NCBI GenBank assembly: GCA_021777845.1
Contig: JAJYDB010000011.1
Span: 1 to 35,041 of the forward strand
Source of the DNA: Planctomycetota bacterium
GTDB taxonomy: Bacteria; Planctomycetota; Planctomycetia; Isosphaerales; Isosphaeraceae
Length of the DNA stretch: 35,041 bases
Reading direction: 5' to 3'
Part shown: in pieces, positions 3,185 to 26,596 of the stretch
Position numbering within the stretch: position 1 is the stretch's first letter
How the letters are laid out: each line of letters starts with the position of its first letter
Position numbers and translations under genes: made by a program
The notes under the pieces: model-generated
What the model saw: only the letters and a program-made list of their open reading frames with translations
What the model was told of the DNA's origin: nothing
Database searches by the model: none

Positions 3185-3200
3185 CGGGTAGAGTTACCCG
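3185..3200. terminator. Small hairpin between convergent genes
   Basis: Six perfect pairs, CGGGTA against TACCCG, close a four-base loop (GAGT). The hairpin lies between the convergent DUF1552 and mnmE-like genes and overlaps the mnmE-like stop codon (3194-3196). It has no U-tract on either side, so a terminator role is only possible. Confidence 0.3.
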
Positions 3201-4336
3201 AGTAGAGCGAGGAGTCGCGCGCGGGCGATATCGGGACGATCAGAGTGGAGTAATTCGAGCGCCGCTTCAATCGCCGCGAGATGCTCCGGCAAGAACGGCG
3301 CGGCCTCGCCGGGTTGTGGAGGGTGCGGAGCGATCCGCGCCGCGATCGCCGCGCGCAGATCGTCGACGCCGTCGCCGCGCGCCGCGGAAACCTCGATCAT
3401 CGGGCCGCGGCTTGCGAGCCCGCCGGCGTTGGGGAGGTCGGACTTGTTCGCGACGAGGATCGTGCGATCGTCGCGGCCGGCGAGCAGCCGTTCGTCTTCG
3501 GATTCGAGCGGCCGCGAGCGGTCGAAGACGAGGATCACGACGTCGACGACCGCGCGGACGCCGCGCGCCGCGGCCACGCCGGCGGCTTCGACGTCGTCGC
3601 GCGCCGCGCGCAGCCCCGCGGTGTCGACGAATTCGACCGGCAGTCCGTCGAGCGCCGCCCGCGACGAGACGACGTCGCGCGTCGTCCCGGCGGCTTGATC
3701 CACAATCGCTCGTTCATATCCAACAAGTGCGTTGAGCAGGCTGCTCTTGCCGACGTTGGGGCGCCCCACAATCGCCGCCCGCGCGCCCGCGACCATCCGC
3801 GCGCCGACGCGACCGACCGCGATCAACCTCGTCAGTCGCGCCCGCACCGCGGCGAGTTCATCGGGCCCGCCGCCGCACAACACGGCAGTCTCTTCGAGCG
3901 CGCGGCGCAGCGCGCCGAGGCTTTGATCGAGCAGGAATTCGGCGACGCGCGCGGTCGGAGCGCGCGTCAGCTCGACCAACGCCGCCGCTTCGAGCGCGGA
4001 GCCGGCCTCGTCGCGGACCCAGTCGGACGGCGGGCGCAGGGTCGCCCCCGCGACGACGAGCGCATCGAGCACGAGCGTCAACGCGGCCGAGCCGCCGTGT
4101 CCGTGCAGCTCAACTTGGGGCGGAGCGCGGCTGATCAAGGTCGCGACCACCTCGTCGCCGAGCCCCGCGCCGATCAACCCCAACCGCGGCCGGCCAACTT
4201 CGCTCACCTCAAACCCCGCCCCGCGCCTGGGCCGCCACGCCGCGCCGACCACCTCGACCGCGCGCGGACCCCACACCCGCAACACCGCGAGCGCCCCGCG
4301 CGAAGATGACGTGATCACGCTGACATAGCATGACAT
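3194..4336 (-). CDS. MnmE/TrmE-like GTPase lacking the C-terminal FCIGK motif
   Basis: This 380-residue protein has the architecture of the tRNA wobble-uridine modification GTPase MnmE. Its N-terminal folate-binding-type domain holds SRGALAVLRVWGP and VELHGHGG. A helical region follows, then an inserted Ras-like G domain with all motifs: GRPNVGKS (~191-198), TTRD (~218-221), DTAG (~238-241) and NKSD (~297-300). True MnmE is about 450 residues and ends in a catalytic FCIGK-type Cys motif. Here the protein stops at ARARLLALLG, and no such motif follows in any frame before the next gene. The usual GEFTKRAF-like segment is also replaced. GTPase activity is expected, but the tRNA chemistry is doubtful. 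The start is the ATG at 4336; a GTG at 4357 would add seven residues. It is the last gene of the ribF run, 34 bases after coaX. Confidence 0.85.
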   Translation of the reverse strand: MSCYVSVITSSSRGALAVLRVWGPRAVEVVGAAWRPRRGAGFEVSEVGRPRLGLIGAGLGDEVVATLISRAPPQVELHGHGGSAALTLVLDALVVAGATLRPPSDWVRDEAGSALEAAALVELTRAPTARVAEFLLDQSLGALRRALEETAVLCGGGPDELAAVRARLTRLIAVGRVGARMVAGARAAIVGRPNVGKSSLLNALVGYERAIVDQAAGTTRDVVSSRAALDGLPVEFVDTAGLRAARDDVEAAGVAAARGVRAVVDVVILVFDRSRPLESEDERLLAGRDDRTILVANKSDLPNAGGLASRGPMIEVSAARGDGVDDLRAAIAARIAPHPPQPGEAAPFLPEHLAAIEAALELLHSDRPDIARARLLALLG

Positions 4337-4370
4337 CGTTGTCTCTGTTGTTTGCACGCGTGAGCTTCAT

Positions 4371-10503: not shown

Positions 10504-11307
10504 TTACCGAGGCGAGCTCGGAGCCGAGCGCGCCTCGCCGGCCGGCAAGGGTCGCACCCGGAGGTTGCGGAACGCGACCGGCCCGTGATCCGCCTGCAAC
10601 AACAGCGGGCCCACAGCGTGCTCTTTCGCCTTGTTCCAAGCCGCGCCGGTGGCGTACGGCACCTCGACGTCCTCCTGGATCAGCACGCCGTTCAGCGTCG
10701 CCCGCACAATGCGCGCGTCCGACGTCTTCTTGCCGTCGGCGTCAAACCGCGGCGCGCGGAAGCTCGCGTCGAGCGTCTGCCACTCGCCGGCGGGCTTACA
10801 TGCGTTCACGCGAGGAGGCTTACCTTTGTCGAGGTAATGATACGTCGGCAAGAACGCCGCGCGCGGGTAAATCCCGCCGCAATCCTGGCCCAGAGGCTGC
10901 TTTACGCCGAAACTGTCGAGAATCTGGATCTCGTAAATCCCCTGAAACTTCACCCCCGAGTTCGATCCCTTCGGGATCATGAACTCGCAGTGCAGCTCGA
11001 GGTCGCCGAACGCTCGCTTCGTGACCAAATTCACCGTCCGGCCGGTCGCGCCGTTGTAAATCGCCCCCGTCCCCGGCTCGACCGCGAACCGCCTTGGATT
11101 TGCGGAATCAAGATGTGCGTCCGCGATACTCTTCCAGCCGTATTGAGCCTGCCAGGCGGCGAAGTCGGGCGTCGAGAGCATGATCCAGGCCTCTTTTTCG
11201 TCCGCCTGGACCCGCGCGGGACAGTTTGCATAAACGCCCGCCCACGCAACGATCGCGACCCAAAACGCCGCGAGCCTCGGCCCGTCACCGCAGCTGAATC
11301 GTGACAT
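10504..11307 (-). CDS. Secreted DUF1080 (3-keto-disaccharide hydrolase-like) protein
   Basis: A 267-residue protein with an N-terminal signal (hydrophobic LAAFWVAIVAWAGVYA) and one DUF1080 domain, a concanavalin-like beta-sandwich expanded in planctomycetes. Characteristic blocks are FGDLELHCEFMIPKGSNSGV, GIYEIQILDSFG, CGGIYP, WQTLDASFRAPRFDADGKK and LLLQADHGPVAFRNLRVRPL. Some family members cleave 3-keto-glycosides; the substrate here is unknown. The start is the ATG at 11307, preceded by GGGAGCGG; the frame extends upstream but without a signal-like sequence. It is divergent from tRNA-Sec, and its stop lies three bases from the stop of the opposing gene, leaving no room for a separate terminator. 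Confidence 0.9.
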   Translation of the reverse strand: MSRFSCGDGPRLAAFWVAIVAWAGVYANCPARVQADEKEAWIMLSTPDFAAWQAQYGWKSIADAHLDSANPRRFAVEPGTGAIYNGATGRTVNLVTKRAFGDLELHCEFMIPKGSNSGVKFQGIYEIQILDSFGVKQPLGQDCGGIYPRAAFLPTYHYLDKGKPPRVNACKPAGEWQTLDASFRAPRFDADGKKTSDARIVRATLNGVLIQEDVEVPYATGAAWNKAKEHAVGPLLLQADHGPVAFRNLRVRPLPAGEARSAPSSPR

Positions 11308-11403
11308 CCGCCGCTCCCTCGCCCACGCCACCCGTCGAACACCCGACACCGAAATCGACCGCCGACTTCGATCGTACGACGCCCGTCGACGATTGCAAGC
11401 GGC

Positions 11404-11432
11404 TGGACTTCCCGACCCGCGGGCGCTATAAC
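11404..11432 (+). promoter_or_regulatory. Probable promoter of the tRNA-Sec gene
   Basis: TGGACT (11404-11409) and TATAAC (11427-11432) are 17 bases apart, matching the sigma-70 boxes at four and five of six positions. The start would be near 11439, about 14 bases before the mature 5' end of the tRNA, a sensible leader for RNase P processing. Confidence 0.55.
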
Positions 11433-11452
11433 GTCTCCTTCGGCGAACACTC

Positions 11453-11551
11453 GGGAGCGTGTTCGCGGCTGGTGCCCGGCCCGGTCTTCAAAACCGGTGA
11501 GGGGTCGCGAGAGCGGCTCCTGGTGGGTTCGATTCCCATACGCTCCCGCCA
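11453..11551 (+). tRNA. selC: tRNA-Sec (anticodon UCA)
   Basis: This 99-base gene folds as a bacterial selenocysteine tRNA. The acceptor stem has eight perfect pairs (GGGAGCGT with ACGCTCCC). The anticodon stem CCGGT/ACCGG closes loop CTTCAAA, with anticodon TCA at 11488-11490, which reads UGA. The variable arm is long: nine pairs (11500-11508 with 11513-11521, two G-U) around a GAGA loop. The T arm has five pairs and loop TTCGATT, giving the 8+5 bacterial arrangement. Discriminator G is at 11548 and CCA is encoded at 11549-11551. The D stem reaches six pairs around a TGGT loop only if C11466 is bulged out. It implies selenocysteine insertion by SelA, SelB and SelD, none of which is in the window. 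Confidence 0.95.
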
Positions 11552-11554
11552 AAA

Positions 11555-25868: not shown

Positions 25869-25923
25869 ACCGGCGAGCCCGAGTCGGCGTCTCGATCCTA
25901 CAGCGACAGCCTCGATAGAATAC

Positions 25924-26010
25924 GGAGGGGTGCCAGAGTGGTCGATTGGGACGGTCTTGAAAACCGTTGAAGGGTCACACCTTCCGTGGGTTCGAATCCC
26001 ACCCCCTCCG
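25924..26010 (+). tRNA. tRNA-Ser (anticodon UGA)
   Basis: An 87-base class II tRNA. The acceptor stem GGAGGGG/CCCCTCC is perfect, the anticodon loop CTTGAAA gives TGA at 25958-25960 (reads UCA and related serine codons), and the variable arm GAAGG/CCTTC encloses six bases. The T loop is TTCGAAT. Discriminator G is at 26010 and no CCA is encoded, unlike the tRNA-Sec gene in this window. Confidence 0.96.
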
Positions 26011-26596
26011 CTTCGTTCGTTATCGACAGTGACCGACCTGATGCGTCGAAACCCTTGTTCTCCAGAAGTTCAAGCTCGATCCACAAATCTTCGCATAGCG
26101 AGTCGTTCATATCAGTGGATCTACTGAAAGTCGACGGTTCGCGACCGTTTCGGGCCGCTCGAAATCCGGTGCGGGCGGCCGCGAGAGGGAGTGCCGCGCG
26201 ATCTCGGATCGGATGAACCGCTCGGCCTTGAATCGACGCGCCGCAACGGCTTTCCGCGACGACCTCGACGGCCCACCGTGGGGTCGGCCCGTGTTTCGGG
26301 CCTAGGCAAAGCCGCGCGTGGACGTGCTCGCGCGCGATCTCCCGCTCGAATTCGGCGAATTCGGCGGGCTTGTCGGCCATCGCGCGACCCGACGGCGTCG
26401 TCAGACAGCGTCACGGACCAATCCTGATACTCGCGATCGCCCCACCTTTCGGCATCGGACTGAGCCTCGAACGCGAGCGGGGTCGCGATGCCCAACATGC
26501 TCGTTATGCTCCCTCGGCAAGAGAGGGAGTGGTGGGCATCGTCGCGCTCGCCTGCGTGGTTCGCTCGGCCCGTGGACCGTAAAGCCGGCAGGAGAA
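26011..26596 (-). pseudogene. Gene-poor stretch with a possibly broken minus-strand ORF
   Basis: No intact gene is convincing in these 586 bases. On the minus strand a frame from an ATG at 26498 (MLGIATPLAFEAQSDAERWG, then DREYQDWSVTLSDDAVG), with GGAG about 11 bases upstream, looks protein-like. The protein-like signal then appears to continue in a different frame from an ATG at 26380 (MADKPAEFAEFEREIAREH, HARLCLGPKHGPTPRW). A third piece starts MNDSLCEDLWIELELLENKG near 26110. The pattern suits a decayed or frameshifted gene. The second frame runs on into the antisense of tRNA-Ser, which is an artefact. The family is not recognised. Confidence 0.25.

Follow-up and report, generated by a model that had tools for sequence, protein, structure and literature searches.

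In bacteria, tRNA-Sec (selC) follows the Rfam model RF01852 (8/5 fold) and has an 8+5 acceptor/T branch, the anticodon UCA, a six-pair D stem with a four-base loop, a long variable arm, G73 and CCA. Its D arm is recognised by SelA through shape and not through sequence (PMC7609411). A D-stem bulge at position 13a was reported in tRNA-Sec of Clostridiales, a set with seven-pair acceptor stems, and planctomycetes were not named in that report (Santesmasses et al. 2017, PMC5330540). As for gene order, selA, selB and selC usually form a cluster in Alphaproteobacteria, Betaproteobacteria and Pseudomonadales (PMC1794560), and the planctomycete P1 keeps selC separate from selA and selB (PMC4807772).

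Here, we analyzed a selC gene of a planctomycete of the family Isosphaeraceae, located at 11453..11551 on the + strand of a 35,041-nucleotide stretch of DNA (the window, meaning the whole stretch). The gene shares all the features of bacterial tRNA-Sec listed above, and differs from the enterobacterial tRNA-Sec (L112, CGTCTC/GAGGCG) in an extra base in the 5' D strand. With the Clostridiales tRNA-Sec it shares the single bulged D-stem base, whereas its acceptor stem has eight pairs instead of seven, and the bulge lies one base earlier than 13a (about 12a by our own count; in many relatives it is at 11a, two bases earlier). We consider it about 95% probable that this is an intact, functional-looking selC within an active selenocysteine system, with the bulge as a common and tolerated one-nucleotide insertion.

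The gene was called by ARAGORN as tRNA-SeC(tca) at 11453-11551 with the anticodon UCA, and was matched by Rfam RF01852 over 11453-11547 with 79.5 bits (E 5.5e-15, model positions 1-91 of 91; gathering cut-off 47 bits). It is the top RF01852 match in the genome; since the runner-up, a tRNA-Ser inside the window, also exceeds the cut-off with 53.2 bits, the score alone is not decisive for tRNA-Sec. Pairs read off the sequence gave a complete fold, with all features on the + strand. The 5' strand of the acceptor stem (11453..11460) forms 8/8 pairs with 11540-11547, and the 3' strand continues through G73 to the encoded CCA (11540..11551, GCCA end). The anticodon arm (11481..11497) has five pairs and the loop CUUCAAA with UCA at 11488-11490, the variable arm (11500..11521) has nine pairs and a GAGA loop, and the T arm (11523..11539) has five pairs and the loop UUCGAUU, making 13 pairs (8+5) in the acceptor/T branch. 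The D arm (11463..11479, loop UGGU at 11470-11473) was assigned by folding, pairing and comparison with relatives. Its six pairs are U11463-G11479, C11464-G11478, G11465-C11477, G11467-C11476, G11468-C11475 and C11469-G11474, with C11466 (11466..11466) bulged between the third and fourth pairs from the outer end. The initial annotation had identified a bacterial tRNA-Sec, and the ARAGORN call, the full-length RF01852 match and the presence of selA, selB and selD in the same genome agree with it. No sigma-70 promoter or intrinsic terminator was found by scanning at selC, a kind of scan that is weak evidence in Planctomycetota.

Two further observations concern the tRNA genes. C11480 and U11498 (27/43, just below the anticodon stem) face each other unpaired; C/U at 27/43 was also found in most relatives and in 56/117 bacterial tRNA-Sec among the matches listed (scan described below), thus many tRNA-Sec lack the sixth anticodon-stem pair seen in the enterobacterial form. 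ORFs antisense to two tRNA genes (11031-11552 and 25898-26380, both on the - strand, containing GNRTHQEP and EGVGFEPTEG) look spurious and could get annotated as proteins.

For comparison with planctomycete relatives, which the initial annotation had proposed, 59 genomes belonging to the same family and class as the host were searched and 32 tRNA-Sec with UCA anticodon were obtained. The distance from the eight-base acceptor strand to the anticodon loop is 25 bases in 30/32, including the gene in the window, one base above the enterobacterial tRNA-Sec. The extra base sits in the 5' D strand, which has seven bases in these 30, and six D pairs are formed with an interior one-base bulge in 29/30 and without a bulge in 0/30. 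Two registers were observed: three pairs on each side of the bulge, the type in the window (CCG-N-NGC/GCNCGG), and two plus four pairs (GC-A-CGGC/GCCGGC). As judged by these pairings, the bulge position slides among relatives. The remaining two genomes (G019 and G024) have a six-base 5' D strand without the bulge and have kept selA and selB.

The comparison was extended by a pattern scan of named genomes in which the 5' D strand was left unconstrained, and at least 117 tRNA-Sec were obtained, a sample and not a census. Among the matches listed, 70/117 have an unbulged six-pair D stem and approximately 38/117 (32%) reach six pairs only via an interior 5'-strand bulge, while in six an unbulged stem forms five of its six pairs, and three are of other kinds; for L141, counted among the 38, an unbulged stem of five pairs is the better reading. 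For the loci listed with a record title, from which the taxa were taken, the bulged form was found in 3/5 Planctomycetota and in Actinomycetota, Bacillota, Verrucomicrobiota, Deltaproteobacteria, other Pseudomonadota (Halomonas, Polynucleobacter) and Campylobacterota, giving at least seven phylum-level groups; it is absent from most Pseudomonadota, Acidobacteriota and Chloroflexota among the matches listed. The bulge had been regarded as unusual at the outset. With the extra base in 30/32 relatives and the bulge in about a third of the bacterial tRNA-Sec listed, this view was not upheld, and the predicted D-stem bulge is a common feature of bacterial tRNA-Sec. A D-stem bulge was already described in Clostridiales; only the wide occurrence of the bulged form and the sliding of its position are mildly new. 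Five of the scanned loci (the verrucomicrobial L104, L119 and L140, and the untitled L153 and L160) seem to have a seven-pair acceptor stem together with a longer linker and a bulged D stem.

According to the known bacterial pathway, SerRS would charge this tRNA-Sec with serine, SelA, reading the long D arm, would turn Ser into Sec with selenophosphate supplied by SelD, and SelB would take Sec-tRNA to UGA codons. A one-base bulge would retain the six pairs and the four-base loop seen by SelA and leave the shape of the D arm largely intact, and its position would shift among relatives through base-pair exchange; the insertion would then be neutral. The initial annotation stated that SelA, SelB and SelD all contact the D-stem region. 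To our knowledge, there is no evidence for binding of SelD to the D arm, and the SelB part of the statement is likewise unsupported. The part on SelA agrees with its recognition of the D arm (PMC7609411).

The bulge may instead be a positively used element of recognition or flexibility, matched by a co-adapted N-terminal domain of SelA. Such a role would fit the retention of the extra base in 30/32 relatives despite variation in its identity and exact register, the recurrence of the bulge in many phyla and the reading of D-arm shape by SelA. Against it, G019 and G024 lost the bulge yet retain both selA and selB, most Pseudomonadota, Acidobacteriota and Chloroflexota among the matches listed do without it, and neither its position nor its base is fixed. 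We regard this explanation as unlikely. The stronger form of the proposal, in which the sliding bulge amounts to a second standard architecture for bacterial tRNA-Sec that selection maintains, along with an adapted SelA, in planctomycetes and several other phyla, seems equally doubtful.

A second alternative is that the D stem is unbulged, with three or four pairs and a larger internal loop. A fold of this kind exists, as the RF01852 alignment places the D stem ungapped with two mismatches, and the energetic difference is only about 3 kcal/mol (minimum-energy fold −52.0 kcal/mol with the bulge, −49.0 kcal/mol in the unbulged register). The D-stem pair probabilities are 0.31-0.59 in a model of the unmodified, isolated strand, so that the thermodynamic argument for the bulge is weak when taken alone. 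The comparison of arms, however, favours the bulge. Of 19 distinct arms, 18 form all six pairs once an interior base is bulged, and none does so unbulged; when the 3' strands were shuffled 2000 times, the number of bulged arms with six pairs averaged 5.0 and peaked at 11. In the gene itself, only 4/6 D pairs are formed when C11466 is not bulged, so the initial reading that six pairs need the bulge holds, and the covariance fold without it, although it can be drawn, is improbable as the actual structure. A tolerated insertion is our preferred reading. In the light of the relatives the bulge appears to be real, and it is neither an error nor a peculiarity of the gene at 11453-11551.

The genome of the host (G000; 4.85 Mb, 407 contigs, 92% complete) was searched for selA, selB, selD and UGA-containing selenoprotein genes, as the initial annotation had suggested, and all three genes and several candidates were found. 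selB is located at C290:5870-7753 (343.8 bits) with EF-Tu-like and SelB winged-helix domains, and selA follows directly at C290:7816-9171 (489.2 bits). selD is located at C269:524-1456 (349.7 bits) and carries one in-frame TGA in NCAG-U-AGKLGP. Directly upstream of it lies a SelW-like Rdx gene with an in-frame TGA in CAKU; the two genes, which together span C269:524-1770 (locus L178), both have the TGA at the redox position and may form a two-selenoprotein operon. Two thioredoxin-like candidates with WUGPC (C4:8491-8847 and C228:2066-2440) and a peroxiredoxin-like candidate with UIAC (C321:4545-4874) also contain in-frame TGA. Besides selD, at least four selenoprotein candidates thus have TGA at the redox position (the list is partial), and foldable sequence is present after the TGA (putative SECIS). 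Since the TGA codons fall at known redox Cys/Sec sites, an active Sec code in the host is very likely.

Two other genes were rejected as selenoprotein genes: the formate dehydrogenase-like match has no internal stop and lies below the family cut-off, and the FmdB-like gene also lacks an internal stop. No match to selU was found in the host genome, thus selenouridine is not an evident reason for keeping selD. The planctomycete P1 resembles the host in its dispersed sel genes and several selenoproteins, and differs in having a Sec-type fdhA and a 2-selenouridine synthase (PMC4807772), neither of which was detected in the host genome.

A relic gene, or a sequencing error at the bulged C, is extremely improbable, the only point in favour being the mismatches in the Rfam register: the pseudogene reading was rejected because this genome carries selA, selB and selD together with several genes containing TGA, the error reading because 29 other, independent genomes share the insertion, and the D arms covary.

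The genomic position of selC was then considered at the level of the lineage. No sel genes other than selC were found within the window. selC is adjoined upstream by a PF06439 protein and downstream by a Pfam-less, probably exported protein, in agreement with the initial annotation, which had reported unrelated neighbours. The domain search also showed PSD/PSCyt and DUF1552 family proteins in the window, which point to a planctomycete as the host. At 3194-4357 on the - strand lies an MnmE/TrmE-like GTPase of 387 aa, in which the match to the TrmE N-terminal domain is weak and the C-terminal part is unmatched. Among the selC-bearing genomes, selB was found in 31/32 and selA in 31/32. selA and selB lie 5 kb or less apart in 19/32 genomes having both, and selC lies 10 kb or less from selA and selB in 3/32 (G014, G015 and G041). 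Six relatives whose assemblies have long or single contigs show selB and selC 0.7 to 3 Mb apart. The isolation of selC had been taken as a departure from the usual order, an expectation that may stem from the selA-selB-selC clusters mentioned above; with selC apart from selA/selB in 29/32 lineage genomes, and in P1 as well (PMC4807772), isolated selC is the normal layout in this lineage.

In conclusion, neither a D-stem bulge nor an unlinked selC in a planctomycete should be taken as a sign of decay. About one-third of the bacterial tRNA-Sec among the matches listed carry a D-stem bulge that is not represented in the Rfam model, and this could matter for annotation and for the tRNA-Sec variants accepted by SelA.
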